Below the pieces are notes generated by a model, which saw only the letters and a program-made list of their open reading frames with translations, had not been told where the DNA came from and ran no database searches. Positions 1 to 13,362 of a DNA stretch of 64,000 nucleotides are shown here, piece after piece; positions within the stretch are counted from its first letter, which is position 1; each line of letters opens with the position of its first letter. This DNA comes from a bacterium (GTDB lineage Bacteria > Bdellovibrionota > Bacteriovoracia > Bacteriovoracales > Bacteriovoracaceae). The stretch spans positions 124,001 through 188,000 of the forward strand of contig JAUHVL010000003.1 of the NCBI GenBank assembly GCA_030425045.1, read 5' to 3'. The position numbers were made by a program, and so were the translations under genes.

Positions 1-42
1 GATTTCCAGTAGCTAATTAAACATTTCCAGCTTTCCCTTTGG

Positions 43-68
43 GGGCAAGTGCCCTCATTGGGTTTTTT
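43..68 (+). terminator. possible weak terminator or attenuator at the window start
   Basis: A short hairpin (GGGCA at 43-47, TGCCC at 50-54) is followed after eight bases by a six-T run at 63-68. The stem is short and not adjacent to the T run, so this is a weak candidate. It would end transcription of a gene lying left of the window, just before the SD of the first CDS. Confidence 0.3.
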
Positions 69-94
69 ATTAACTTTCCATAAAGGAGGATTTT

Positions 95-385
95 ATGGTT
101 GAGCAAGCAATTGATCAAAAACATTCACATGACCAGCAGGTAGAGTCAACAACTGAAGGTGGTTTCATTACAATTTCTGGAACTATTTTTTCAACACTAG
201 GCAAAGTCTTTCTTGCTATCGGTACAACTGGATTACTTATGTATCTATTTGTTGCAGCAGAAGCCGTTGTTGGATTAGGTGCACTCTACACTGGTGCAAC
301 TGCTATCGCCGGAGGTCTAGCAACGATGATGCTTGGAAATCGTCTAGCAAATGGTTTTTGGATTGATGGATTACTTTCAGCTTAG
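95..385 (+). CDS. small two-segment membrane protein, unknown function
   Basis: This 96-residue protein has a hydrophilic, His- and Gln-containing N-terminus of about 30 residues. Two Gly/Ala-rich hydrophobic stretches follow (about residues 35-58 and 60-82), separated by only a short turn. There is no cleavable signal peptide, so it is probably an inner-membrane protein. The start ATG follows a strong SD (AAAGGAGG). It is first in a co-directional run (95, 427, 855, 1209), each member with a strong SD, which suggests one transcript of the mobile element. I do not recognise a family. A small pilin-like, holin-like or coat-like protein are all conceivable, but nothing decides between them. Confidence 0.6.
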   Translation: MVEQAIDQKHSHDQQVESTTEGGFITISGTIFSTLGKVFLAIGTTGLLMYLFVAAEAVVGLGALYTGATAIAGGLATMMLGNRLANGFWIDGLLSA

Positions 386-426
386 TTGAAAGGGAGGGGA
401 ATCCCTCCCTTCATTTTGGAGGACTT

Positions 427-846
427 ATGATTAGAGTAATAAGAAATACTAAAACTAATAGAGTTGTAGCTCTTCAGGTTAATGGAAAGAAGTTTTCAGT
501 AAGTAGAGATTTAGGTCATGCACTATCTTTGGAAGAAGATGCAAATCTAGAACAATCTCAAGAGCTTGTGAAAAAAGCACAGAAGACTCAAAAGGCAATT
601 AATGACAAAAGTTATGTTGGGGAATCTTCTCAAATGAAACTGAAGGTCAATTTTGATGAAATGAATCGAATTGATAGCAAGAAGACTGTAGTTGAATTTA
701 AAAAAGAGCTTGATTCAAATTCAAAAGAAATATTTTTTGGTTTGATTGAAGACTTCATACTTTCAGTAAATAGAGCTCAATACAAAAGACATCTCGATTA
801 CTGCTCTTCTGTTAAAGACCTAACGAATGAAAAGCAATCAGCCTAG
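427..846 (+). CDS. hypothetical protein of the mobile element
   Basis: This 139-residue soluble protein is rich in Lys, Glu and Ser and has no signal peptide or membrane segment. The first 30 residues look like a small beta unit (RVIRNTKTNRVVALQVNGKK); the rest is predicted mainly helical. The start is set by a strong GGAGG SD. It sits between a small membrane protein and the DUF2958 gene and ends eight bases before the latter. I do not recognise it; its job is unknown. Confidence 0.6.
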   Translation: MIRVIRNTKTNRVVALQVNGKKFSVSRDLGHALSLEEDANLEQSQELVKKAQKTQKAINDKSYVGESSQMKLKVNFDEMNRIDSKKTVVEFKKELDSNSKEIFFGLIEDFILSVNRAQYKRHLDYCSSVKDLTNEKQSA

Positions 847-854
847 GAGGAGTA

Positions 855-1160
855 ATGAAGTTAATACCGAAAAGTGTAAGAGTTCCCGCGATTGGAGAAA
901 CGGAAAATCAAGAAGATCCGCTAGCATTGATAAAGCTATTTCATCCTTTTAGCTCATGGAGATGGTTTGTCGTTGAGTATTGCGAGAAAGACGAGCTTTG
1001 CTTTGGCTTGATTGAGGGACATGAGGTTGAGCTAGGCTACTTTTCTTTAGCTGAATTGAAAGGATTAAGATTAAGGGGATTACCAGTAGAAAGAGACCTG
1101 CACTTTGAACCAATAAAGCTTTCTGAATTAAAGAAGAAGCTTAAAAATTATTCCATTTAG
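855..1160 (+). CDS. DUF2958 domain protein
   Basis: This 101-residue protein matches my memory of the DUF2958 family along its whole length. Landmarks are the DPLALIKLFHP segment, the WRWFVVEY aromatic strand, CFGLIEGHEVELGYFSLAEL near the middle, and the GLPVERDLHFEP segment near the end. DUF2958 proteins are typical cargo of plasmids and integrative elements and have no established biochemical role. The SD (AGGAGGAG) is strong and the gene follows the previous one by eight bases. This gene is one of the better signs that the region belongs to a mobile element. Confidence 0.85.
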   Translation: MKLIPKSVRVPAIGETENQEDPLALIKLFHPFSSWRWFVVEYCEKDELCFGLIEGHEVELGYFSLAELKGLRLRGLPVERDLHFEPIKLSELKKKLKNYSI

Positions 1161-1164
1161 TTCC

Positions 1165-1196
1165 CCCCGCGAAGCGGGGACCCCTCCTTGAGGAGG
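1165..1196 (+). promoter_or_regulatory. tandem hairpins in front of the resolvase gene
   Basis: A perfect stem (CCCCGC at 1165-1170, GCGGGG at 1174-1179, three-base loop) is followed by a second (CCTCC at 1183-1187, GGAGG at 1192-1196). The second stem hides an SD-like AGGAGG, while the functional-looking GGGAGGTGAT just downstream stays free. There is no T run, so a terminator is unlikely. A role in setting resolvase translation or in mRNA processing is inferred. Confidence 0.35.
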
Positions 1197-1208
1197 TTGG
1201 GAGGTGAT

Positions 1209-1808
1209 ATGACAACAGTTGCCATTTACTGTAGAACATCAACGAACATGCAACAAAGTGGCCTTGAATCACAAAAAAGAGCTCTTGTTGAATATTGCAA
1301 AAGTAAGCAAATTCAAAATTATGAACTTTATGAAGATTTTGGAGTCTCTGGAACTAAATCTAGTCGACCTGAGCTAGATCGACTTATGAAAGAAGTTCGT
1401 AAAGGTAAGGTCGGAACTGTTATCGTTTATTCATTTTCAAGGTTTGCTAGGAGTACTAAGTTTCTATTGGACTCATTAGAGGAGTTTAATGACCTAGACG
1501 TAAACTTTGTCAGTCTTAGTGAGAATGTTGATTTAAGCACAGCCATTGGAAAAGCAATGTTTACTATCATATCGGCCATTGCAGCTCTTGAAAGAGATCT
1601 TATTTCAGAGAGAGTCAAGAATGGAATGAAGAATGCCAGAGCCAAAGGGAAACAGATTGGCAGAGAAAAAACGAGACCAACTGAGGCTATACTGGCTCTA
1701 AGAAGCAAGGGGTATACATATAAACAGATTGCAAGAATGTTAGATGTCTCTGAAGGTACAGTAGGAAATGCTATTAGAGATGGATTGCACAAGAATAATA
1801 AAGATTAA
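1209..1808 (+). CDS. small serine recombinase (resolvase/invertase family)
   Basis: This 199-residue site-specific DNA recombinase has the resolvase catalytic domain in residues 1-140. The nucleophile is Ser11 in the YCRTS motif, followed by the GVSGTKSSRPELDRL loop and the SRFARS arginine motif. The long E-helix carries ALERDLISERVKNGM. The C-terminal 45 residues form a Hin-type helix-turn-helix (YKQIARMLDVSEGTV). I chose the ATG at 1209 because GGGAGGTGAT lies just before it; a TTG at 1188 is in frame but has no SD and sits in a hairpin. Small enzymes of this kind resolve multimers or invert segments. Here it probably serves multimer resolution or switching within the element. Confidence 0.92.
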   Translation: MTTVAIYCRTSTNMQQSGLESQKRALVEYCKSKQIQNYELYEDFGVSGTKSSRPELDRLMKEVRKGKVGTVIVYSFSRFARSTKFLLDSLEEFNDLDVNFVSLSENVDLSTAIGKAMFTIISAIAALERDLISERVKNGMKNARAKGKQIGREKTRPTEAILALRSKGYTYKQIARMLDVSEGTVGNAIRDGLHKNNKD

Positions 1809-1830
1809 CCTTTAATGTGTACGGAGCCGG

Positions 1831-1856
1831 ACCCATAAAGGAAATGTTTAATGGGT
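1831..1856. repeat. imperfect inverted repeat after the resolvase gene
   Basis: ACCCAT (1831-1836) and ATGGGT (1851-1856) face each other with AAA/TTT continuing part of the pairing inward. It lies just after the resolvase stop, within a 249-base gap that holds no gene. It could be part of a recombination (res-like) site or a weak hairpin; nothing proves either. Confidence 0.3.
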
Positions 1857-2057
1857 GATTATAAAACCCTAATATTTCATAATTTAAGATGTTGTATACT
1901 AGGACGATTTATCAAAATAAATCTTTCCCATGAGTACTTGGTTTTAACTAATGCTTGGAAATTATTGAATGAAGGATACTTTACCATTTAATTGTGCAGA
2001 TACTTTTCAATTCTAAGTACTAAAAAATAAAAAGTTAGAAATTATTTTGGAGGTCAG

Positions 2058-2378
2058 ATGGAAACTCAAAGTGTTTTCGCTGTTTCATCTATAGGTCTAT
2101 TGCTAGGAAGCTCTCTATATATCGGAGGAGCTGTGGCTGGAGGTATCTATACAGGGCTAATTTCAGCTCTAGGGATGGGGCTAATATTAATTAAATTAAA
2201 AGATAGCTTTCCCAGGGTGTGGGTAAGGATGCTGAAACATCCGATCCTGACAGACGTTGTATTATCTAGTTTGTTAGCAGCACTCTTAATCAATAACACG
2301 GTTACTGGAATTATCTCAGCAGCAGGCGCAGGTTTATTTGTCAGTGCGGGCATAACAATTGCCACTAGACTAAAATAG
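2058..2378 (+). CDS. small multi-span membrane protein, unknown function
   Basis: This 106-residue, very hydrophobic protein is rich in Gly, Ala, Leu and Ile. It has about four hydrophobic segments (roughly residues 6-28, 31-47, 62-80 and 82-103) around one short basic stretch (KLKDSFPRVWVRMLKH). There is no lipobox or clear cleavage site. A strong SD (TTTTGGAGG) sets the start. It stands alone between the resolvase and the repressor control region. Composition resembles holins or small immunity proteins, but I do not recognise a family. Confidence 0.55.
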   Translation: METQSVFAVSSIGLLLGSSLYIGGAVAGGIYTGLISALGMGLILIKLKDSFPRVWVRMLKHPILTDVVLSSLLAALLINNTVTGIISAAGAGLFVSAGITIATRLK

Positions 2379-2390
2379 TTGTTCTTTTTG

Positions 2391-2490
2391 GCGAACGATT
2401 TTGTTCGCTAGGTCGAATTGGCGAACGCGTAATGATAGTAAGTATGGTGGCTTAAAAAAATGCCGTTCGCTTCTGTGAATAGGTGTTCGT
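2391..2490. promoter_or_regulatory. cluster of GCGAAC/GTTCGC operator half-sites upstream of the XRE repressor
   Basis: One perfect inverted repeat has GCGAAC at 2391-2396 and GTTCGC at 2403-2408 with a six-base spacer. Further half-sites are GCGAAC at 2421-2426, GTTCGC at 2465-2470 and GTTCGT at 2485-2490. Five half-sites within 100 bases directly before a helix-turn-helix repressor gene is the usual picture of an autoregulatory operator region. The binding protein is inferred, not shown. Confidence 0.6.
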
Positions 2491-2530
2491 TCGTATTGAA
2501 GTATATCCGATAATTAAGGTTGGAGAGTAT

Positions 2531-2815
2531 ATGGAGTTTAAAACTACGCTCAACTCCTTAATGGAGAAGAGAGGACATTCATTAGGTTCACTCGCGAAGG
2601 AAACAGGAATCAGCAAGAGTTCTCTTCATGGATACCTTCAGGGCGCAGAACCTTCTCTTACTAATATGATGAAACTTGCTCGCTTTTTTGGTGTTTCGTT
2701 GGACTATTTAGCTACTGGAGAAAACCCAGATCCTGTAGAGCAGATGCTGAAAGTTCACGTTCATAGTGGCCTTTATGAAGTGAATATAAAGAAAGTAGTG
2801 AAAGAGGAGGATTAA
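2531..2815 (+). CDS. XRE/Cro-type helix-turn-helix repressor
   Basis: This 94-residue DNA-binding protein has its helix-turn-helix in residues 5-62. It includes the pattern SLAKETGISKSSLHGYLQGAE followed by PSLTNMMKLARFFGVSLDYLATGE, typical of XRE repressors. The C-terminal 30 residues are short, with no peptidase domain, so this is not a LexA-cleaved repressor. I chose the ATG at 2531, preceded by GGAGAG; an upstream GTG at 2483 lies inside the operator region. It ends in a one-base overlap with the next gene, so repressor and envelope genes are probably co-transcribed. It most likely represses its own promoter through the GCGAAC sites. Confidence 0.88.
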   Translation: MEFKTTLNSLMEKRGHSLGSLAKETGISKSSLHGYLQGAEPSLTNMMKLARFFGVSLDYLATGENPDPVEQMLKVHVHSGLYEVNIKKVVKEED

Positions 2816-3321
2816 TGAATTTACTACTAATCTTCTTTTTCATGTTCGGACAATTGTGCCTTGCGAGTGAAGACCCTCGAAACTTTAAATTTAGTGCTTT
2901 ATCCGATTGCTCTAAGAAAAACATAAGAAAAGAAATTGATACTTATGAAAAAAGATTTCGTCCAAAGCATAGTTTTCATCTTATTAAGATTTTTAATAAA
3001 GGATGGAATTGTGAGGAGGAAATAATTTGTTCTGTGTATATGGATAAAAATCTAAAAACAATTGATCCAATTTGGAGATATTGCTCAAAAAGTTTAAGAA
3101 AAAAGAAAATAGTAGCAAAAAAAGAATCTAAGCTTGATAAGTGTGAACCTCAAATGATTGGTCAGTATGTGATCGAAAACGGATATCGAAAGCACTCTAT
3201 TCCCAAAATGGCAAAGGATTTAGGGTGTCAACCAAGAGATATATGTAATGCTTTTATTTTTATGTATCCCGATAAAAAGGAAGTATGGCAAAGGGGATGT
3301 GAGGATAAAGGTTTTTGGTAG
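2815..3321 (+). CDS. secreted Cys-containing protein, unknown
   Basis: This 168-residue protein has a short hydrophobic signal peptide (MNLLLIFFFMFGQLCLAS, cleavage near residue 18). The mature part is basic and has several Cys residues in two similar units: about residues 32-85 (FSALSDCSKKN through RYCSKSLRKK) and 102-160 (LDKCEPQMIG through QRGCEDKG). In each unit one Cys comes early, another in an EIICSVYMD or DICNAFIFMYPD segment, and the last before the end. That suggests a duplicated disulfide-bonded periplasmic domain. The SD AGAGGAGG is strong. First of the envelope-protein run behind the repressor; the family is not recognised. Confidence 0.6.
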   Translation: MNLLLIFFFMFGQLCLASEDPRNFKFSALSDCSKKNIRKEIDTYEKRFRPKHSFHLIKIFNKGWNCEEEIICSVYMDKNLKTIDPIWRYCSKSLRKKKIVAKKESKLDKCEPQMIGQYVIENGYRKHSIPKMAKDLGCQPRDICNAFIFMYPDKKEVWQRGCEDKGFW

Positions 3322-3329
3322 GAGATCAT

Positions 3330-3692
3330 ATGTTTACTAGTAAAATGAAAAGGAAAAAGTATATCCTTTTGAGCTTAGCTGCGAGTATTTTTATCTTTGC
3401 CTTGATGGTGTTTTTTGGGGGAACTTTCTCTCAAAAAGTGAATGGAATTGATATGCTAAAGATCTACTCCACTCCATGGTATTTCTTGATGACTGTCTTC
3501 TTTCTAAGAAGAGCAGGCGATGCCTTAGGCAAAGAGGGAGTAGTATATATTAATATTGCTTTAGCAGCGACGGTCACTCTCTTAGGTGCTTTTGTGCCTA
3601 TATTTAAACCTAAGTTTTTATTAATTCCCTTTGTATTAATGGCTTTCTTCCCATCAAAGCAAAAAGTCGAACCAGATAAGGAGGTTACATGA
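3330..3692 (+). CDS. small inner-membrane protein, unknown
   Basis: This 120-residue protein has about four hydrophobic segments (residues 12-30, 42-57, 68-86 and 90-107) and a basic start (MFTSKMKRKKY), so the N-terminus is probably cytoplasmic. The charged C-terminus (KQKVEPDKEVT) is also likely cytoplasmic. I chose the ATG at 3330, which follows TAGGAG; an earlier in-frame start at 3315 overlaps the previous gene. It overlaps the next gene by four bases (ATGA type), so the two are translationally coupled. The family is not recognised. Confidence 0.55.
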   Translation: MFTSKMKRKKYILLSLAASIFIFALMVFFGGTFSQKVNGIDMLKIYSTPWYFLMTVFFLRRAGDALGKEGVVYINIALAATVTLLGAFVPIFKPKFLLIPFVLMAFFPSKQKVEPDKEVT

Positions 3693-4291
3693 AAAAGGTA
3701 TTCATTTTTACGATATTTATTACTGGTTTAGTCGGATGCTCTTCTTCTCCATTTAAAGAAGAAACAGCCCAGCAAAACAAGATTAACCAACATCTTTCTC
3801 AGGGGGTTAAGTATCTCGAGGGTGACTTTGAAGAAAAGTACAATAGTTCTGGTAGAAGTGGAATGTATATGACAGCTATTGGTACTGCAATTTACCCAGT
3901 AGAGAAGAGCCAAAAGGTTGTTGAGTCAGCAGCTGTTACAGATGCAAAATTCAGACTTACTGAGTCTGCTCCATCTAATTTCAAAAGAGAGGTTCAGCAG
4001 GCAATTGGGACAGAGTATGAAGGTGTGGGTGACTATAGCGAGATTTCTGTTTCTGTTACCGAAGTAAGAGGCTTGACGGGGATAAAGGTTCGGTATTCAG
4101 ATATTTCCTGCAAAACAAAGGTTTCACCAACATCTAAGGGAAGCTATAAGACAGAGAGAGAGTGTCGTGCTATTGCAAAAGTAAAACTTAGTGACCTTAA
4201 AAAGGCTTATAGTTATACCTTAGATGAAAAGTACCGAGGAAAGAAGAAACAAATTGATCGTAGAGTTGCTCAGCAGCTAACTTCTAAATAA
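3689..4291 (+). CDS. lipoprotein, unknown function
   Basis: This 200-residue protein has a lipoprotein signal peptide (MKKVFIFTIFITGLVGC; lipobox Cys at residue 17) followed by SSS. Lipidation and anchoring in the envelope are therefore likely. The mature part is mixed alpha/beta, with a conserved-looking VESAAVTDAKFRLTESAP segment and two Cys about 25 residues apart (DISCKTK, TERECRA). The end is strongly basic (KYRGKKKQIDRRVAQQ). The layout recalls small LPP20/FlgT-like lipoproteins with a xxAxxxAxxxL helix before the sheet, but that is only a resemblance. It is coupled to the preceding membrane protein by a four-base overlap. Confidence 0.6.
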   Translation: MKKVFIFTIFITGLVGCSSSPFKEETAQQNKINQHLSQGVKYLEGDFEEKYNSSGRSGMYMTAIGTAIYPVEKSQKVVESAAVTDAKFRLTESAPSNFKREVQQAIGTEYEGVGDYSEISVSVTEVRGLTGIKVRYSDISCKTKVSPTSKGSYKTERECRAIAKVKLSDLKKAYSYTLDEKYRGKKKQIDRRVAQQLTSK

Positions 4292-4314
4292 GTAAAAAAT
4301 TCAAGGGGAGGTCT

Positions 4315-4746
4315 ATGAATAAAATCGTTTTAGTGATTTTTGTTTTGACTTCCTCTTGTGCGCATAAGACTCGGAACAATCTATTGGGAAAGAATATTCC
4401 GTTTCAAGATTCTACAAGAGTTCATGAAGACCATGAAGGAAAAATCAACTTTTCAACAATTCAATCGTGGATCAGGTCTAAGAAAATTCATATAGGGTTT
4501 AATTCCTGTAAAAAAAGTTTTGGGTCATATATTTCATTTTCAGAAATGAGCCCTTCAGAAATTACTATGTCTAGAATGTTTTTGGTTAAGCATGGGGTTC
4601 GTTTACGTTCTTTTTCTAGTGAGCTTAATGAAGTGTTCAATGAGCAAAAGCTAGAGGGGAACTTTTTAAAATTAACTATTACAACGGAAAGGTGTTTTGG
4701 GAAAGATGGACGCTTTGCATTGGTTGAAAGTTACGAGGTTTATTGA
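4315..4746 (+). CDS. small lipoprotein, unknown
   Basis: This 143-residue protein begins with a short lipoprotein signal (MNKIVLVIFVLTSSC; lipobox Cys at residue 15). The mature part has a Cys in NSCKKSF and one in TTERCFGKDG, which could pair, and a SFSEMSPSEITMSR segment. There is a good SD (AGGGGAGG). Second lipoprotein of the repressor-linked envelope run. The family is not recognised. Confidence 0.55.
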   Translation: MNKIVLVIFVLTSSCAHKTRNNLLGKNIPFQDSTRVHEDHEGKINFSTIQSWIRSKKIHIGFNSCKKSFGSYISFSEMSPSEITMSRMFLVKHGVRLRSFSSELNEVFNEQKLEGNFLKLTITTERCFGKDGRFALVESYEVY

Positions 4747-4748
4747 TT

Positions 4749-5312
4749 ATGGGTTTTTTAATAGTCATTGGCGGAGTATTAGCAATTAGCGGATTGAATT
4801 ATATGTTTTCAGAAGTCGGAAGTGGGATTGAGGGGAAGCCTCCAATAGTGACAATTAAAAAAAGTGTAGAGCTTCTAAAAGAATATAACAAAAAAATACC
4901 AGAAATGAATCATAGAGAAGTTTCTCGTCTTTCCTGGGAAATGCTTCAGAGTGGACAGGTTAATAAAAGCTTATCTTTGTCGTGCTTCCAAAATCAGCCA
5001 AGTGAATACTACTTTGTTAACTATTTAGATTTGGAAATAAATGAAATTGAGTACCTAAGATATTTTTTCTTACCCAAGTTTTCATCGGATCATTCGATTA
5101 AATACAGATTTTCCACTAGTAACCAAGTGATTAGAAAGTTTGTTAAAGAAAAGGTCGTCAATAAAATCGACATAAAAACGATTGTTTGTAAACGCTGTTT
5201 AAGAGGGGAAGGGAAATCTGTCGAGGCTAGGGTCACTGATGGTGGCTGTAGCAAAGATGAAAGATTGTATGACATTGTTACCGAGATTTACTTACCTTTC
5301 AGGGGGCGATAA
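4749..5312 (+). CDS. membrane-anchored protein, unknown
   Basis: This 187-residue protein has one N-terminal hydrophobic segment (MGFLIVIGGVLAISGLNYMF), more like a signal anchor than a cleaved signal. The remaining 165 residues are soluble and mixed in charge, with four Cys: one near LSLSCFQNQ, a pair in IVCKRCLRG and one in GGCSKDE. I chose the ATG at 4749; an in-frame TTG at 4743 overlaps the preceding stop. It shares one base with the next start. The KRCLRG Cys pair might hold metal or a disulfide. The family is not recognised. Confidence 0.5.
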   Translation: MGFLIVIGGVLAISGLNYMFSEVGSGIEGKPPIVTIKKSVELLKEYNKKIPEMNHREVSRLSWEMLQSGQVNKSLSLSCFQNQPSEYYFVNYLDLEINEIEYLRYFFLPKFSSDHSIKYRFSTSNQVIRKFVKEKVVNKIDIKTIVCKRCLRGEGKSVEARVTDGGCSKDERLYDIVTEIYLPFRGR

Positions 5313-5842
5313 TGGAAATAGTAGCTGTATTTGCACTCGTTGGATGGCTTGGGCATGGTATAGTAAGTAATATTATGCAGAGCAATCATGATGTCAAATC
5401 ATGGGAGAAGTGTAGGTTTGATAAAGATGTATACAAAAGTGGCCTTCTTGGTTTTATTGCCCATCCCAGTTATCAAAAACTGTCCCAATCTGAAAGGAAT
5501 AAAAAAGTAGCTGAACTTGGAAAAGAGGGGATGATTAATCAAGATCCAAATCTCTCTTGTTATGAATCAATCAGGAGCTTAAACTTTGTAGGTTGTTATT
5601 ATCATCAGGTGATTAATAATTACGAGCTTCTTAGCCGTTATGAGTCTGCACTGGCTATTCCCGCAGAGGAATATAATGAAATCAATTCATATTATTTGGA
5701 CGTCAAAAAGGACACATATCTAATGAACGATCAAATGAATACTGAAATTAAGGTGCCTGCCAATGTAAGGTTTGCTTCATGTCGACCTGAGATAGATGGT
5801 TATGAGACATGGATTACTTCTGTAATTTTTATTAAGGAGTAG
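5312..5842 (+). CDS. membrane-anchored or secreted protein, unknown
   Basis: This 176-residue protein begins with a hydrophobic stretch (MEIVAVFALVGWLGHGIVSNIM) that could be a signal anchor. The mature part has several Cys (KCRFD, LSCYES, VGCYYHQ, ASCRPEI) and many aromatic residues. It resembles its upstream neighbour in size, layout and Cys use, so the two may be distant relatives, though I see no clear alignment. Its start overlaps the previous stop by one base. Last of the six envelope genes behind the repressor. Confidence 0.5.
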   Translation: MEIVAVFALVGWLGHGIVSNIMQSNHDVKSWEKCRFDKDVYKSGLLGFIAHPSYQKLSQSERNKKVAELGKEGMINQDPNLSCYESIRSLNFVGCYYHQVINNYELLSRYESALAIPAEEYNEINSYYLDVKKDTYLMNDQMNTEIKVPANVRFASCRPEIDGYETWITSVIFIKE

Positions 5843-5844
5843 TT

Positions 5845-6708
5845 ATGGAACTGAAGCTTGCACAAAAGAAAAGCTGGGACATTTAATATCGTAGTAAATG
5901 TCTTGAGAGTATGTCGAGCGAAACGCTGTTGGCTTTTCAGAAAGAGGTTCAATCATTTTTAAAGTTTTTAAATAAGCAGGATGAGAATGATTCCGAGTGG
6001 AAAGAGTTGCAATGTAGCATGTTAGCAATGGAGTATTTTTTAATCATTCAGTATAGCATGTTAACGAAAGGGGGTTACTTTTCCGGTATGTATGAGGATG
6101 AAGAAGTCTGCACTGCTGAATTACCGCAGAAGGAGGATAATATGGAGAGGAAGAGACTTGAAGATGTTGCCGATATTATTGATATTGAAGAGTGCTTAGA
6201 TTTACCAGATGATGAACTTAGAGAAGAGATAAAAAAAGAGCTGATTGATATGTTTGAAGGACTTGAAGAGCATGCTTTTACCGGTAAGTCTAAGAAGCAC
6301 CCCCTTTTAAATGGAATGAGTGAGAAGGAAAGATGGGAAGCAATAAATCTTGTGTATGATCTTCGAGTAGAATTTGAATTACTTAAATTTACAAATAAAA
6401 ATCCAGATATTGTTGTTGTTCAACTCGCTATGCAGGAACTATGGGAAGCTTTTGGTTCTGATGAGTATAGTAAGCTTGACGATGAAGAAGAGGAACGCTT
6501 TCTTAAGAGAGTTGAGTCCTTTCGAGAGCAGCTAAAGGAAATTGATAGCCCAAGTTATGACCTAAAGAGACTGGACTTTGATTGTATGACAATTTGCTCG
6601 ATTATTATGATGAATCAAAATGTGAAGCAATCAGGTAGCGCTTTAGGGGAAAGCGCTGCTGAAGATTTTTTTAGTCTGTTAACTAAAGATAAAAAGAAAG
6701 TTGGGTGA
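5845..6708 (+). CDS. acidic hypothetical protein with an in-frame stop after 13 codons
   Basis: An ATG at 5845 with a clear AAGGAG SD opens a reading frame that hits TAA at 5884-5886 after 13 codons. The same frame then runs open from 5887 to 6708. The main open part can restart at the ATG at 5911, giving 265 residues, but that ATG has no good SD. The protein is strongly acidic (many Glu/Asp runs such as DDEEEE), helical, and has no signal peptide or membrane segment. Either translation starts at 5911, or the TAA is a recent nonsense mutation near the true start. It lies directly after the envelope genes and is last in the rightward run. The family is not recognised. Confidence 0.55.
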
Positions 6709-6743
6709 GTTTGTTTAAAAAGTAACTGCACTAATGCACTTTT

Positions 6744-8405
6744 TTACCAAAAATGATCACCGCACCACTCGATTAGGCGAAAAGCATGCTCCTCTCTATC
6801 GTGCAGCTTGGCAGTTTGAATTTCTGCTATTTCCTCATGAAGCAAGCCTACGCCTTTTAGTATTCCATACTCCCTGAGTTGTTCATCCCTTCTTCCTCCC
6901 GGAGTATAGGGGGTGCTTTTGGCAGATCTAATAATTGCTTCAGCATTGATTTTTTTGTGTAGTCTATTTGAAGGTATTGCCATGCCAGAGCTTGTAAAAA
7001 AAAGATCTTCAATAAAGTAGCGGGCAGATTTTCTCATCCTGGGCCTTGCGTTTATTGTCCTGGAAAGCACCCTTAGCTCGTTAATTAATTTTTCTCTTAC
7101 CCTTCTTGCTGTCGACCTTGTGATTCCGGTGGAAAAGCTCCATAGGGTTGCACCTTGCCTTTCAAGCACTAGATATTGTTCTCTGTAGCCGTATAGATAC
7201 CTGTAGTAAGCAGAGTGAGATTTATACTCCCTAGAGGTCGGATTTGTTTTGATTCCATGAAAAATAGCAAATTTTAAAAAATGCTTTTCCCAGTCTTTAT
7301 CATCGAATTTTGGCTCAAATCCAGTTTTGCTAGGAGCAACCAAGAAAAAGTCCTCTTTTGAGACCGGATTCTCTGGTAGGGGTTGCTCCTCTACCCCTAC
7401 ATAGCTTGCAATTTCCTCAAGTGAGTAAGCGGGGTTGCTATAAGCTTCTTCAAGCCTTCCTTTTATGTACTTAGATTGCTTGATTTTAGGTGCATAGCTA
7501 ATTTCTCCAGTGTCAGAATTTAGAACTTCTCGAAGTTTATAGTTCTGAGTTTCTGGAACTCTCATAAGTCCTGCAGTGCTCCTTGCTCTAGCCATGTCCC
7601 CTTTGAATATCTGACAAAGCTTGGTCTGAACTTCCTTGAAAAAAACACAAGCTCCTATTCTTTGAGGTGAATCATACGCTCCCTTTTCTAGAAGGTTGAT
7701 GTGCTTCACTCCCCAGTATAAATGAAGACCATTCCCCGACTTCACTATAACCTGAGGAGAGATCGCATCATTCCTTTTTAGGAGCTCCTCTACTTCTTTT
7801 TCATGGGTGTCTTTGAAATCTATATCGACATAGCAAAAATGAATTCCACTGAGTACTCGATGATCCCGCTTGGGCTTACGTGAGTTTTTGTAAGCGCTTG
7901 TTCTGACTTGCGATTTGAGAGGGATAGTCTCTATTTGCTGAATATCGTTCAAGCTCTCACCCGTGTCAGGGCAAACACCAGTAGATGAGAGAATCTGTCT
8001 TTGCTTAGTGTAGTGTTTAGTTTTAAGCGTTGTTTCTATTGGATTAGGTGAAAAAAATGCATTGTAGAGATCGAGTCCCCAGCCACGTAGTTCTAAATTA
8101 AGGTTTTCCTGCGTGAATGCATCGGGGAGTTTGTTATACTTCTTAATCTGTTTAAGCGAGAGACCACCTAATTTTTTCTTGGTAGAGCATTTAGTTTTTG
8201 AGCTGAGAAAATCATCTATTTCATGGAGTTCGATTCTAGGCTTCCAAATGTCTTTATATCCATCAGCAGGTTCTGCTGGGAGCAGGGTTACTTGAAATGG
8301 AAGCAACCCCTTTGAGGGGGTTGCCCCTAGTCTTTGAGGATGAATAGTTGTTTCAGGAAAATCTGCTGAGGTTGGATTAGTGATAATTATTTCTTTAGTT
8401 TTCAT
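6744..8405 (-). CDS. archaeo-eukaryotic-type primase (RepB/PrimPol-like replication protein)
   Basis: This 553-residue protein carries the three motifs of the AEP primase superfamily. They are YVDIDF (Asp194, Asp196), SGNGLHLYW (residues 223-231, His228), and GDMARARSTAGL with MRVPETQNYK (Asp270, Arg282, Asn288), which matches the RxPGTxNxK pattern of RepB/PrimPol-like proteins. The first 110 residues are unassigned. Residues 340-553 are basic and include an ITRSTARRVREKL segment that may bind DNA. Such enzymes prime or start replication of plasmids and phages. A strong SD (GGTGGAGGAG) precedes it, and it follows the ATPase gene by only two bases, so they form one operon. The pair is best read as the element's own replication module. 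Confidence 0.75.
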   Translation of the reverse strand: MKTKEIIITNPTSADFPETTIHPQRLGATPSKGLLPFQVTLLPAEPADGYKDIWKPRIELHEIDDFLSSKTKCSTKKKLGGLSLKQIKKYNKLPDAFTQENLNLELRGWGLDLYNAFFSPNPIETTLKTKHYTKQRQILSSTGVCPDTGESLNDIQQIETIPLKSQVRTSAYKNSRKPKRDHRVLSGIHFCYVDIDFKDTHEKEVEELLKRNDAISPQVIVKSGNGLHLYWGVKHINLLEKGAYDSPQRIGACVFFKEVQTKLCQIFKGDMARARSTAGLMRVPETQNYKLREVLNSDTGEISYAPKIKQSKYIKGRLEEAYSNPAYSLEEIASYVGVEEQPLPENPVSKEDFFLVAPSKTGFEPKFDDKDWEKHFLKFAIFHGIKTNPTSREYKSHSAYYRYLYGYREQYLVLERQGATLWSFSTGITRSTARRVREKLINELRVLSRTINARPRMRKSARYFIEDLFFTSSGMAIPSNRLHKKINAEAIIRSAKSTPYTPGGRRDEQLREYGILKGVGLLHEEIAEIQTAKLHDREEHAFRLIEWCGDHFW

Positions 8406-8407
8406 TA

Positions 8408-10240
8408 TTACTCCTCCACCTCTGTATCTATATATATACGTGAGCAGTTTTCTGCTGCATTGCTGCTTGTAAAGTCTGCCATTTGAGGAAAATTGTTATA
8501 CTCTCTTCCGTTCAATAGTCTTCCGAGCTTCTTGGGAGACCTACCAGCCCACTGCTTAAAGAAAAAGGCACTCTTTTGCTCTTCACACTGACGTAGTACA
8601 GACTGAACCCACGCTTCATCCATCTTTCTAAAATTGGTGCCACTCTCGCCTCCCACAATTACCCAATCAATGTCTTTCAGATTAAGTTCACCAAGATTTT
8701 CAAGTAGTGGTTCGCATGATAGAAATTTAACCTTGGCTGGAGTGTCACGAAGCAATTCTATTCTAGGTACTCCATATCTTTGATCTTCAACGGAGACGCC
8801 CCACCAGACATTACGAAGGCCAGCATACTCTTTAAGATCATTATTAAGTAAATAATGAAGCCTTGAGGCTCTTTTTGTAAGAACTTGGAATGTGTGTTGA
8901 GGGCAGGATTTCATTACTTCACAAACTTCCGTTAAGTATTCTACAGTGAAGCTTTCATGGAAAAAGTCTGACATACTGTTAACGAGTATCTTTTTTGGTT
9001 TCTTCCATTTTTTGGGTTGGTCTAATAAGTCTGGTGCAACCCTAGGAATAAATCCTTTCTCGTAGGCATTTCCCTTAACTCCTTCAAATCTTTTTGCAAA
9101 AGTTTCGGCATAGCAATTTTTGCATCCAGGTGAAATCTTTGAACAGCCCCTCATCGGGTTCCATGTTTCGTCGGTCCACTCAATCCCTTTCTTTGGAGTT
9201 GTTGCCTTTGGAGTAGGTGAAAACTTTAAGTCATTTAGTATCTCTTTTTTTAAATCATAAAATCTTCTCTCTTTTTTTCCTGTCCTTTCAGTAAAATGAT
9301 TAATCCACCCCTTTTTATTATAGGGAAACTCTGCCATGATCTGCCTAAGGATATCTTTACTGGAGTCCTCTTGCTGGTTAACTCTGAGTTCTTTGAGAGC
9401 TTGCGGAAGTGATTCCTTAAGGTGAATTGACCTGAGCTTCAACTGCTTGAATGTTCTAAAAGAGAACTCTAGTTCATATCTATTAGCTTCATCTCGAAGC
9501 TGGTCATAGACGAACTGGTCAGTATCATCTTTGAGAAGAAATTTTTGTATGTACTCAATTTTTTCCCTAGTAGTGAGCTCTAGTTCGATATAAAAACCAC
9601 GGTCTTTTAGAGCTAGATTTTTCTTTCCAAGAGCGGTGTTGGTTAAAATAATCACTCCTGCTTCAAAATTGTACTCTTGAGGTGTGCCCTTGCCTTTAAC
9701 TGTTGTTTCATAACAAATTCTTCTTACTTGCTTATCGTCAGTTGCTGACTTCAGTAAGTTTGCTGCTTTAAGATCATCAAAGACTGAGTCACAGTCATCG
9801 AAAACGATGACCATTCCTTTTTCTCTATACTCATATAGCTTTTCAAAAAGTCTTTTAGTGGTAATAAAACCTGAAATAATAATAAAGTTTTTTCCTTCCT
9901 CCATTTTGTGCTTTCTGAACAATTCTCTAATAATTGTTGTCTTGGCGTAGCCTGGTTTGCTTTTGACGATTGCAAAGTGATGCTTTCCTTGAATTACGAT
10001 ATTGAGCTCACTTATAAGCTTTAAATATTTTTGACCACAGTTTAGCTTTGCAACACTATTGGTAAACTCATCTATATCAAAAACTTGTTTTTGCTCTATG
10101 ATAGGCTCATTTTCGGGATAACTTTCTTCTACCTCTATGTCCTCAATAGACTGCAGTACTGCACTAAGATCTATAAGTTCTTTACTCATTGAAATGGCCG
10201 ATTTGTCTTTTGTTTGGTGATTTTCACTGCAATTCTGCAT
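8408..10240 (-). CDS. AAA+ ATPase fused to a phage Gp37/Gp68 (DUF5131) domain
   Basis: This 610-residue protein has two clear parts. Residues 60-290 are an AAA+-like ATPase: a Walker A variant (KSKPGYAKTT, Lys100), Walker B VIVFDDCD (Asp148/149), a sensor-like VIILTN and an arginine near LKDRG. Residues 300-340 resemble a winged helix, followed by a Thr/Pro/Lys linker. Residues 350-590 match the phage Gp37/Gp68 family: IEWTDETWNPMRGC, then three Cys (366, 373, 376), NCYAE, VNSMSDFFHE, FQVLTKR, WWGVSVED, LSCEPLLE, VIVGGESG and FFKQWAG. The function of that family is not established; the Cys triad could bind a metal or Fe-S cluster. The two parts are normally separate proteins. The SD is AAGGAG, and the gene leads the minus-strand operon ending in the primase. 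Confidence 0.8.
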   Translation of the reverse strand: MQNCSENHQTKDKSAISMSKELIDLSAVLQSIEDIEVEESYPENEPIIEQKQVFDIDEFTNSVAKLNCGQKYLKLISELNIVIQGKHHFAIVKSKPGYAKTTIIRELFRKHKMEEGKNFIIISGFITTKRLFEKLYEYREKGMVIVFDDCDSVFDDLKAANLLKSATDDKQVRRICYETTVKGKGTPQEYNFEAGVIILTNTALGKKNLALKDRGFYIELELTTREKIEYIQKFLLKDDTDQFVYDQLRDEANRYELEFSFRTFKQLKLRSIHLKESLPQALKELRVNQQEDSSKDILRQIMAEFPYNKKGWINHFTERTGKKERRFYDLKKEILNDLKFSPTPKATTPKKGIEWTDETWNPMRGCSKISPGCKNCYAETFAKRFEGVKGNAYEKGFIPRVAPDLLDQPKKWKKPKKILVNSMSDFFHESFTVEYLTEVCEVMKSCPQHTFQVLTKRASRLHYLLNNDLKEYAGLRNVWWGVSVEDQRYGVPRIELLRDTPAKVKFLSCEPLLENLGELNLKDIDWVIVGGESGTNFRKMDEAWVQSVLRQCEEQKSAFFFKQWAGRSPKKLGRLLNGREYNNFPQMADFTSSNAAENCSRIYIDTEVEE

Positions 10241-10271
10241 AATGTTTCTCCTTAAATATGTGATTATGCGT

Positions 10272-10290
10272 TAATTCGCTTGTCGAATTA
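10272..10290. promoter_or_regulatory. inverted repeat between divergent element genes
   Basis: A perfect inverted repeat (TAATTCG at 10272-10278, CGAATTA at 10284-10290, five-base centre) lies between the divergent ATPase gene and the gene starting near 10363, next to an AT-rich ATTATAAAATATT stretch. It is a likely operator for one or both directions. TCGAATT also occurs beside the repressor operators at 2413-2419, which may or may not be meaningful. Confidence 0.45.
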
Positions 10291-10362
10291 TAAAATATTA
10301 AGTACTTAGTGATTGATCCAAACCTCTTTAAAGGTTTATTTTTCAGGATCAGAGGGGTTTTG

Positions 10363-11391
10363 TTGAAAGACGATCGTTTTAAGTACATTAACGACAGGCT
10401 GAAAGAGAGAGCATTTTCATGCTGGGATGTTGCTGTTTCTAAATCTCGAAAAGGAGATACGAAGACTGGAACAAAGTATATGGGACATACTGTAAAAGGT
10501 GTGACCAACCCTCATCATGAAGGGTTTTCTCAGGCTAGACTTGATGACTTGTCTGACGTTTTAACTGTTTTATCAAGAGGTGAAGATAAGGAAGCCTTTA
10601 TAGCTGAGTTCATTGGCGCTGCTGATCACTTTTTTAGACAAGAGGATGCAGTACTTGAGAAAGTTGATGCTAAGGAGAAGGCACTTTCGATTATAAAAAA
10701 GACTCTTGAAGGTCTTGCTCAATCTGAAAAATCTTTAGAGGAATCATTATATCTTCTAGGTGGATTAGGTGAGTTTGAAAAGCTTTATAAATTTAAGATT
10801 GGTTTAGAAAAATTAATAAACTCTTCGGAAATTAGCATTAAAGAGCAACGCTCATTTAACAGGTTAAATAATTACGATGAGGGGAATATTGGTTTAGGTA
10901 ACAAAGAAGCTATTATTAAGTTGTTTAATTTCTTTGTTAAAACTTTAAGTAAGTGGGAAATTAAAGAGGGTAGAAAAAAAGTTATTGATAATAACTTTTT
11001 GATTGATCTCGAAAAAGAGTTCTTTATAACATTCTTATTTAAAGATGAGGATCTGGAGGTTATTTCTGGGGGTGCTGTGAAGGTTCCAAGTAAGTTTGCT
11101 GGAGGCAACAAGAAAGGCATTACCCCAACAGCCTTTAAGATAATTTATCAAGTCGTTGACTCTCTTGGAATTACTCATATTGGTGCTGAAACAATAGGAA
11201 AAATCATTAATAAGAGGTCTGAGGTTGATATACCTGAACATGTCTTAGTAAAAGCTGATGATTCTATAAAGCAAATTCAAATAGCGGAAGAAGAGCTGGA
11301 TAGGGCTTCGGAACCTTATATATTATTTCCAGATGGTACTAAAATTCCAGATTTCTATGATCATGTAGAAAGAGAAACCCCTGAAAATTAA
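10363..11391 (+). CDS. hypothetical protein of the mobile element
   Basis: This protein of about 342 residues is soluble and largely helical. A long Lys/Glu-rich central part and an FFRQEDAVLEKVDAKEKAL segment suggest a coiled coil near residues 85-120. I chose TTG at 10363 because AGAGGGG lies six bases upstream; an in-frame GTG at 10309 has no SD, and a hairpin (AAACCT/AGGTTT, 10318-10335) sits between the two. The C-terminus (YILFPDGTKIPDFYDHV) looks like a compact strand-rich end. It is divergent from the replication operon. The family is not recognised. Confidence 0.55.
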   Translation: MKDDRFKYINDRLKERAFSCWDVAVSKSRKGDTKTGTKYMGHTVKGVTNPHHEGFSQARLDDLSDVLTVLSRGEDKEAFIAEFIGAADHFFRQEDAVLEKVDAKEKALSIIKKTLEGLAQSEKSLEESLYLLGGLGEFEKLYKFKIGLEKLINSSEISIKEQRSFNRLNNYDEGNIGLGNKEAIIKLFNFFVKTLSKWEIKEGRKKVIDNNFLIDLEKEFFITFLFKDEDLEVISGGAVKVPSKFAGGNKKGITPTAFKIIYQVVDSLGITHIGAETIGKIINKRSEVDIPEHVLVKADDSIKQIQIAEEELDRASEPYILFPDGTKIPDFYDHVERETPEN

Positions 11392-11448
11392 TTTTTGAAT
11401 CCCAGGAAGGGTTTCGTTGAATCATTTTGACGTTGATAGAAATCCTAC

Positions 11449-11766
11449 ATGGATTTTTCAACGGACGAAAAGACATTCAATCCTTGTGAGCAATTTGATG
11501 ATACCAGTAAGGTAAAATCAAAGACTTGTAGCTCATGTCACAAAACCCTCCTTTATGAGTTTTTTTATAAAAACAAAAGTAAGAAGGATGGTTACGAGAG
11601 TTACTGTAAATGCTGTGCTAAAAAAAGGAATAAGAAAAAGCAGCAAGAGAGAAAAGCAAAGAGGTCACAAGTATTCACCATTGCATTTAATGGTCTTCCA
11701 GATGAGAGAGTCTTTATCTCGAAGCTGCAGCTATTGATTAAGGAGATTTTGCATGGTGAAGAATAA
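11449..11766 (+). CDS. small zinc-finger-like protein next to the recombinase
   Basis: This 105-residue basic protein has a treble-clef-like arrangement of Cys pairs. CSSC (TCSSCHKTLLYEFFYKNK) comes first, and CKCC (YCKCCAKKR) follows about 25 residues later. A run of Lys/Arg (RNKKKQQERKAKR) comes next. This is the pattern of the small phage zinc-finger proteins related to HNH nucleases, but no catalytic His-Asn-His is visible, so I expect DNA binding without cleavage. It overlaps the recombinase start by 14 bases, so the two are probably co-translated. A role as a recombination directionality factor is possible but unproven. Confidence 0.6.
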   Translation: MDFSTDEKTFNPCEQFDDTSKVKSKTCSSCHKTLLYEFFYKNKSKKDGYESYCKCCAKKRNKKKQQERKAKRSQVFTIAFNGLPDERVFISKLQLLIKEILHGEE

Positions 11767-13297
11767 GGAAGTTAAAATCGGGGCTGTGTATGGGAGAGTT
11801 TCTGTTGATGAATCAGCAGAGGTCGAGCATGGCTCACTAGAGCAGCAACAACATATGGGGCGTGAGTTTGCTGAAGGTCTTTCCGCGACTACTGGTATCT
11901 CTCACATTATTAAGTACAATCTGATTGAAGAGCGTGGGGTCAGTGGTAAGAATACTAACCGCCCAAAGTATCAAGAACTACTTTCATTAGTTCAATCAAG
12001 AAGCATAGACTTCGTCATAGCTAAAGAGATTTCAAGAATCAGTCGCTCAACTAAAGACTTCTGTGACTTCTTAAATATTTGTAAAGAAAATAGCGTTTCT
12101 GTTCATATTCGAGGTATGGCTGCTGACCCTAATTCTCCTATGGGTGAGATGATATTTAAAATCTTTGCAATGATTGCTGAGTTTGAACGTCAACAAATTG
12201 TTGAGAGAACGAAGTCCTCTATTCGTTCAGCTATGAAGAACAATGCAAAAATAAATGGTGGACCAACGCCTTTAGGATTTAAAAAACATCCAGAAAGGAA
12301 GGGGGTATGGGTACCAGTAAAGAAGGAATTGAAAACTGTTGAAATGATAATGCAGAAATTCAATGAAAGACTTTCTTATGTTGAGGTTGTTAATGATTTA
12401 AAAAGTCTTGGGTTAAAGACAAAGACTGGAAAAGATTTTCGTAGCTGTTCACTAAAAAGACTTCTGACGAATAAAAAATATATTGGAAAAATGAGTGTCC
12501 CTAATGACACTGGTGAAGAGATTTGGGTTGATCTTCCCTTTGGAGAGGTTGTTAGCAAAGAATTATTTGATGAAGTTCAGGCGAATATTAAAAAAGTTGA
12601 AGGTAAAAAAGGAATTAATAAAAACAGAAGCAGAATCTATATTTTATCCAGTCTTTTGGAATATGAAGATGGCACTTCTTTTTTAGGTCAATCTGGAACA
12701 GGACGAAAGGGAGACACTCATTATTACTACTATAACAAGAAACACAAGCTATCACTTGAAGCAGTGAAGCTAGAAAAGGCAATTCTGAATTCCTTGAGAG
12801 TGTTTGAGGATAACCAAAAGATGATTAATTACGCTAATGATCTGAAGAAAGATACTTACAGCAAGCTAGACTTTGTGAATCAAGAGATTTCAAAAAGACA
12901 TAGTGAAATGAGAGCTATTGAGAAAGAAGAGACTGAAATTTTACAGAATTTAAAGTCAATGGGGATGAAGGGGTCTTCTAGGGTCATGGAGTGGTTGGAT
13001 TCTCAGCTTCTTGAGATTGAGAATAAGAAGTTTGGGATTAATGAGAGCTTAACTGTGCTTGGAAAGGAAAAAGAAAGCCTAGAGGGGGCTTTCCTGGATG
13101 CTAAGAGCCTCAAGTCTTCGCTCAAGGCGGTGTTTGATAGATTAGATGGTGCAGCTCCTGATGTTCAACGAGGAATCGCACGTCAGTTATTTAAAAAGAT
13201 TAAGGTTCGTAAGGATAATAGGATTGAGATTCTGTGGAATGTCCCTTGTGTTCCTGGCGGTCAAGGGTTTGTGAAAGAAAGTAAATGGGGTGGCTGA
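11753..13297 (+). CDS. large serine recombinase (integrase) of the element
   Basis: This 514-residue protein has the three parts of large serine recombinases. The catalytic domain (residues 8-160) has Ser17 in YGRVS, GVSGKNTNRPKYQEL, SRISRST and EFERQQIVERTKSSI. The recombinase domain (170-280) includes GGPTPLGFKKHPERKG and LLTNKKYIG. The third part normally is a zinc ribbon, but here the region around residues 296-330 (ILSSLLEYEDG, GTGRKGDTHYYYYNKK) has lost all its Cys. A long coiled coil (about 360-450) follows. It should integrate and excise the element. The last codons and stop lie within the tRNA-His 3' end, so the present C-terminus was created or adjusted by integration. Confidence 0.93.
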   Translation: MVKNKEVKIGAVYGRVSVDESAEVEHGSLEQQQHMGREFAEGLSATTGISHIIKYNLIEERGVSGKNTNRPKYQELLSLVQSRSIDFVIAKEISRISRSTKDFCDFLNICKENSVSVHIRGMAADPNSPMGEMIFKIFAMIAEFERQQIVERTKSSIRSAMKNNAKINGGPTPLGFKKHPERKGVWVPVKKELKTVEMIMQKFNERLSYVEVVNDLKSLGLKTKTGKDFRSCSLKRLLTNKKYIGKMSVPNDTGEEIWVDLPFGEVVSKELFDEVQANIKKVEGKKGINKNRSRIYILSSLLEYEDGTSFLGQSGTGRKGDTHYYYYNKKHKLSLEAVKLEKAILNSLRVFEDNQKMINYANDLKKDTYSKLDFVNQEISKRHSEMRAIEKEETEILQNLKSMGMKGSSRVMEWLDSQLLEIENKKFGINESLTVLGKEKESLEGAFLDAKSLKSSLKAVFDRLDGAAPDVQRGIARQLFKKIKVRKDNRIEILWNVPCVPGGQGFVKESKWGG

Positions 13298-13362
13298 CCG
13301 GGCTCGAACCGGCGACAACCAGAACCACAATCTGGCGCTCTACCAACTGAACTACAGCCACC
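13286..13362 (-). tRNA. tRNA-His (anticodon GTG)
   Basis: A complete 77-base cloverleaf on the minus strand. The acceptor stem GTGGCTG pairs with CAGCCAC, with the extra 5' G at 13362 opposite C, as tRNA-His requires. The D arm is AGTTCAGTTGGTAGAGC, the anticodon loop reads TTGTGGT, the T loop is GTTCGAGC, and CCA is encoded at 13286-13288. Its 3' end points into the mobile element and overlaps the recombinase stop, which marks it as the likely integration target. Bacterial tRNA-His is usually single-copy, so integration had to keep it intact, and it did. Confidence 0.96.

Follow-up and report, generated by a model that had tools for sequence, protein, structure and literature searches.

An integrative island at tRNA-His that probably carries attP inside its own large serine recombinase gene and splits that gene on integration

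In this study, we analysed a 64,000-nt stretch of a draft bacterial genome (hereafter the window, G000:C66:124001-188000; host genome G000, 91 contigs) and find that its left-hand part most probably belongs to an integrative island with attP inside the gene for its own large serine recombinase, such that integration splits the gene. We place the probability of this explanation as a whole at roughly nine in ten. It is supported, at the level of sequence, by the insertion itself, a common core at both ends, a matched reading phase, an attP dyad that spans the junction, purifying selection on the detached part of the protein, and recurrence in many lineages. Among the large serine recombinases of the Bdellovibrio-like phylum, this variant is widespread and seems not to have been described before; a literature search of open-access papers returned no account of a serine integrase whose gene is divided when its element integrates.

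The recombinase ORF occupies positions 11753..13297 (+) and, in its integrated, truncated form, encodes an N-terminal 514 aa that we refer to as the body. A resolvase catalytic domain (PF00239, 3e-30) is followed by a Recombinase (RD) domain (PF07508, 9e-14) and a long C-terminal region that includes a coiled-coil, as is characteristic of large serine recombinases, and relatives of the body in the PDB include TP901-1 integrase. A 105-aa ORF without a Pfam match (11449..11766, +) overlaps the start of the gene and is probably co-transcribed with it. The initial annotation had placed the end of this frame, W-G-G-stop, antisense inside the 3' end of tRNA-His, and its coordinates are exact: the final codons TGG GGT GGC TGA (13286-13297) are the exact reverse complement of the 3' end of a tRNA-His (GTG) identified by ARAGORN at 13286..13361 (-), the integration target, in which the CCA is encoded and the 3' end is position 13286. 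The overlap, given there as the last four codons, is real but consists of three sense codons, the fourth being the stop. It is not a product of chance, since recombinases of the same kind in other species also end inside tRNA or tmRNA 3' ends.

The attR core, AAAGTAAATGGGGTGG, spans 16 nt (13278..13293, +) and combines 8 nt of the tRNA-His 3' end with 8 nt of flanking sequence. A second copy of the tRNA-His 3' end had been predicted to the left of the window, and a search of the host genome located it: the right end has a partner at C66:101437-101479, which contains a left-end core identical at 16/16 nt (G000:C66:101464-101479), 22.5 kb to the left of the window. The two cores are 35,814 bp apart, and positions 1..13285 constitute the right-hand part of a 35.8-kb integrated element whose matching left end lies outside the window. 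Past the core, the right end runs into the tRNA (CTGACCGG...) and the left end into ATCTCACC..., the left flank being similar to the last codons of the recombinase (82% over 43 nt). In further support of an element integrated at tRNA-His, relatives have empty tRNA-His sites that lack the recombinase. This comparison was made on a related element in G055, because the left flank of the G000 element belongs to the end of an older element and its own empty site is therefore not visible. The reconstructed G055 site, in which tRNA-His is followed directly by a terminator, occurs uninterrupted in relatives at ~76-84% identity (e.g. G019, G042, G124, G051, G052, G028, G093 and G095), and in G055 itself the two halves are 11.7 kb apart. 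A direct repeat in G000 and an empty site for its G055 relative are together the marks of a tRNA-targeting island. Of the two findings that the initial annotation had named as contrary to it, the same overlap in element-free relatives and a missing left-end repeat, neither materialised.

When the ends of the element are joined, as in an excised form, the stop is lost and one uninterrupted 671-aa frame results (...KWGG-SHHFSSENYRQ...). Its C-terminal part, the tail, is a 157-aa stretch encoded at the left end (G000:C66:101472-101954, +, left of the window), which reads as an open frame when the ends are joined and lies ~36 kb from the body when the element is integrated. The att site thus lies inside the integrase ORF and the N- and C-terminal parts lie at the two ends of the element, as in integrases of the suicidal type. 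The C-terminus had been expected to differ in the excised form, and the joined sequence bears this out, yet what would be regained is a conserved domain of ~157 aa, not a few residues. The earlier interpretation was right but understated, its main omission being that the attachment site splits one gene.

We searched 369 genomes of the phylum with the joined 671-aa sequence. In three relatives, likewise at tRNA-His and with body identities of 36-40%, the body lies at the right end and the tail at the left; the two are separated by 11.7, 14.0 and 13.2 kb and give joined ORFs of 667, 669 and 671 aa, respectively; a tail profile (A1) matches 130/369 genomes. Uninterrupted body-plus-tail ORFs are found in G090 (659 aa) and, twice, in G309 (767 and 793 aa). 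Both G309 genes contain a tRNA-His-like core mid-gene, although their dyads are weak and their contigs (G309:C277, L066; G309:C42, L124) have no terminal overlap when checked for circularity, and so they do not establish that an excised form exists. Searches of phage and plasmid collections returned no fused gene, the tail being matched there only weakly and in part; IMG/VR, scanned with the tail profile, likewise contained no fused gene, and its matches were confined to short helix-turn-helix segments. At one locus (L120, G035:C216), the tail directly adjoins the body, but the reading frame changes across nine consecutive A, which could reflect decay, a sequencing error or a programmed frameshift.

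The attP sites of serine integrases are dyad-symmetric. Across 18 elements, joining the ends produced inverted repeats of 4-15 bp at attP (mean 9.2; >=8 bp in 13/18), whose centre lies about 4.5-6 nt inside the core in almost every case, compared with means of 4.9 at attB, 5.5 at attL and 6.0 at attR of the same elements. Mismatched ends, in which bodies were joined to the tails of other elements, averaged 5.4, with 4.6% reaching 8. The body gene contributes one half of each palindrome and the tail gene the other; in the chromosome the two halves are separated by many kb. This line of evidence is independent of the reading frame. In the window element, the left arm is CTGGCGGT (13254..13261, +) and its partner, ACCGCCAG, lies at the left end of the element within the first codons of the tail; a dyad centre at +4.5 from 13286 predicts GT at 13290..13291 (+) as the crossover dinucleotide. 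The G048 attP reaches only 4 bp by this perfect-match measure. The geometry of the insertion would fit the recombinase as the catalyst of attP x attB recombination.

The same anatomy recurs at other targets. Bodies end inside tRNA-Glu (G134), tRNA-Asp (G129, G144), tRNA-Asn (G193, G033, G180, G165), tRNA-Pro (G275) and tmRNA (G113, G047, G037, G129), the last assigned by recognition of its TGGTGGAGGTGGTGGGAATCGAACCC 3' end, with ARAGORN run for tRNA only. Using a core search anchored on the tRNA/tmRNA 3' end, we found that in each of the 18 nearest pairs, which lie at tRNA-His, Glu, Asp, Asn, Pro and tmRNA, body and tail have a core in common (6-17 nt) and read in the same phase across it, with all three phases represented. 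Sixteen of the 18 consist of a body and tail around one element that ends at a tRNA or tmRNA, while G180B and G165A each adjoin a further element in tandem at their right end; the G059 body and tail are on separate contigs. G021, with no tRNA or tmRNA identified at its right end, was excluded, and G082 (at a contig edge) and G035 (with its frameshift) fall outside the clear pair calls. An unanchored longest-common-substring search was noisy at short cores, gave some out-of-phase hits and was replaced.

Phase changes occur jointly in the two parts. Cores of the tRNA-Asn type include each of phases 0, 1 and 2; the tmRNA clade includes phases 1 and 2, body and tail having shifted together; and the two tandem elements of G180 have different phases, each matched at both ends, with the tested cross pairing out of phase. 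Not every tail on a contig matches, since a second, farther tail on G129:C11 is out of phase. If the pairs were independent, the chance of an 18/18 match would be 3^-18; the pairs are related, and counting about seven phase lineages from the tree gives a conservative 3^-7 (~5e-4).

What the tail contributes can be considered from its sequence and predicted structure. By sequence profile, the second half of the tail matches both PF07508 and the RD domain of the SPbeta integrase YokA. In a structure model of moderate quality (pLDDT 79, pTM 0.42), three short helices typical of a helix-turn-helix precede a long helix and two more; Foldseek with this model gave no significant match. We infer from profile and model that the tail may be an extra DNA-binding module. 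The tail protein is under purifying selection, with dN of 0.03-0.23 and dS of 0.19-1.42 between pairs and dN/dS of about 0.05-0.3. In the integrated state, the tails of G000, G055, G048, G033 and G275 have no start codon before the conserved first helix-turn-helix, and the first start codon in G000 is codon 109/160. Because the tail is under purifying selection and yet often lacks a start codon when integrated, it is most likely selected in its joined form.

An alternative is that the tail is an independent left-end gene, such as a recombination directionality factor or a regulator, that abuts attL and owes its shared phase to att arms constraining both coding ends. In some tails (G001, G059, G180B and others) an in-frame start codon does lie close to the core, and separate expression of the tail is possible in some elements; tails without a body also exist, and one such group reads ATG GGG TCA at the core and hence has its own start. 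We nevertheless regard this alternative as improbable, given that several tails (the window element's among them) lack a start before the conserved domain, that phase matches in every one of the nearest pairs with three phases represented, and that uninterrupted body-plus-tail ORFs occur. The tail-only units (L051, with two tails; L053; L054; L055; and L125, with four tails) lie in some cases in tandem arrays beside tRNA-His or tRNA-Pro, and in several arrays the sequence beside the tRNA, including the terminator, is repeated at each unit boundary. These units are possibly cassettes mobilised in trans.

It could also be argued that this is an ordinary serine-integrase island in which the stop overlaps the tRNA by accident and the left-end ORF is a decayed, functionless leftover. 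Integrase gene ends that overlap att sites are common in general, and the older tandem copy in G000 is visibly decayed, with one TGA in its tail. Purifying selection on the tails, their presence in more than a third of the genomes searched (130/369) and their supply of the matching attP arm make this reading very improbable, more so than an independent gene. An assembly or mis-joining artefact, conceivable in a draft of 91 contigs, is the least credible account of all, as this layout recurs across many assemblies (the single-contig G144 and large contigs of G048, G129 and G193 among them) and relatives have empty sites.

To the left of the window lies what appears to be an older element in tandem at this tRNA-His (L003, G000:C66:92425-101479). 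It has a TGA-bearing tail at its left end (C66:92461-92916) and, at its right end, only ~43 bp that resemble the end of a recombinase gene; joining its remnants gave no clear dyad. Its appearance is that of a decayed or non-autonomous unit in which att sequences were retained but the recombinase was lost. The simplest reading of these sequences would be that the tRNA-His already held an older, related element and that the present one entered on the tRNA side of it. G000 probably hosts several such elements, since a second large serine recombinase, broken by a stop, reads into tRNA-Val (L129, G000:C63:48500-52500) and two further tails lie on other contigs (L127 and L128; G000:C14 and C52).

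The 35.8-kb element also carries candidate defence genes to the left of the window (G000:C66:102929-116890 and 118991-120034), among them an AAA_13 protein matching PDC-S06, a Z1-domain protein matching MzaC, an Eco57I-type methylase, AAA_5 and McrBC-like proteins, and a C5 cytosine methylase. Within the window, a 610-aa protein (8408-10240, -) appears to be an unusual fusion of a weak STAND NTPase match in its N-terminal part to DUF5131 in its C-terminal half (E = 9e-91), and adjoins a 553-aa protein without a Pfam match (6744-8405). A second, small serine recombinase of the resolvase/invertase type (206 aa, 1188-1808, +) is encoded inside the same element.

Our model predicts that, in the circular form, the whole gene would encode a canonical body of ~510 aa joined to a helical tail of ~157 aa, half helix-turn-helix and half PF07508-like, and that the fused 671-aa protein would perform integration. 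Recombination of attP with attB at the tRNA-His 3' end would split the frame. The body would remain at the right end, terminating within the 3' end of the tRNA, and the tail would be stranded 35.8 kb away at the left end with no start codon; from then on, only the truncated 514-aa body could be made. One possibility is a lock, in which the 514-aa body is unable to act and excision would occur through an intact copy in trans, as has been proposed for archaeal suicidal integrases (PMC8371274). Alternatively, the 514-aa form may be biased towards excision, giving a built-in direction switch. We slightly favour the lock. In either case, integration itself would act as the directionality switch, with the fused form coexisting only with attP and integrating, and the body coexisting only with attL and attR and being locked or excision-biased; we advance this proposal tentatively, at somewhat less than even odds. 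Since the body has all canonical domains, it could be fully active, and the split could be without effect on activity. If the directionality switch is real, a DNA rearrangement edits the enzyme, replacing or supplementing a separate directionality factor. Control of direction is a central question for serine integrases, and the island would offer a natural, defined two-state enzyme pair that is directly assayable.

Phage-type large serine integrases typically have attP beside the gene, target mostly protein genes and take their direction from a separate recombination directionality factor. The recombinase described here resembles the phiC31, Bxb1, TP901-1 and SPbeta YokA integrases in the domain order of its body, its dyad-symmetric attP and its short core, and differs in that attP is inside the gene and the tail resembles a second RD-like domain. 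With respect to target, the Ralstonia phiRSM1 / phiRs551 integrase (PMC3816273, PMC5608472) is similarly a serine recombinase that uses a tRNA 3' end in reverse orientation, with a 13-nt core; it is, however, a small resolvase-type enzyme with attP between ORF14 and ORF15 and an unsplit gene (PMC3816273). The serine integrases of mycobacterial AICEs at tRNA-Leu share a tRNA target, with no self-splitting reported (PMC3218068). Serine integration at tRNA genes has been called rare, citing phiRSM1 and these AICEs (PMC3218068), and, according to Islander, no integrases other than tyrosine ones are known to target tDNAs (PMC4383910). The initial annotation's remark that serine integrases usually do not use tRNA genes agrees with both papers, but such targeting is common in this phylum. 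Our data add many serine-recombinase islands at tRNA/tmRNA genes, a target that Islander treats as tyrosine-only (PMC4383910), and such elements would escape island finders in which only tyrosine integrases at tDNAs are retained.

The closest parallel is with the archaeal 'suicidal' integrases of the SSV1, pTN3 and pT26-2 types, in which attP likewise lies in the integrase gene, integration at a tRNA splits that gene to opposite ends of the element, the fragments persist and the arrangement recurs (PMC8371274). These enzymes were described in a 2021 review as exclusively archaeal and as not occurring in bacteria (PMC8371274). They are tyrosine recombinases with the catalytic domain in the C-terminal fragment, whereas the enzyme described here is an unrelated large serine recombinase, in bacteria, that is split after the catalytic, RD and coiled-coil regions, leaving a canonical-looking enzyme intact and losing only an added C-terminal module. 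As a serine recombinase with relatives in Bacteriovoracaceae, Bdellovibrio and Oligoflexia, it falls outside the SSV-type family; it works like an archaeal suicidal integrase without being a member of that family. Self-splitting integration would thus extend to bacteria and to a second recombinase family, unrelated to the first.
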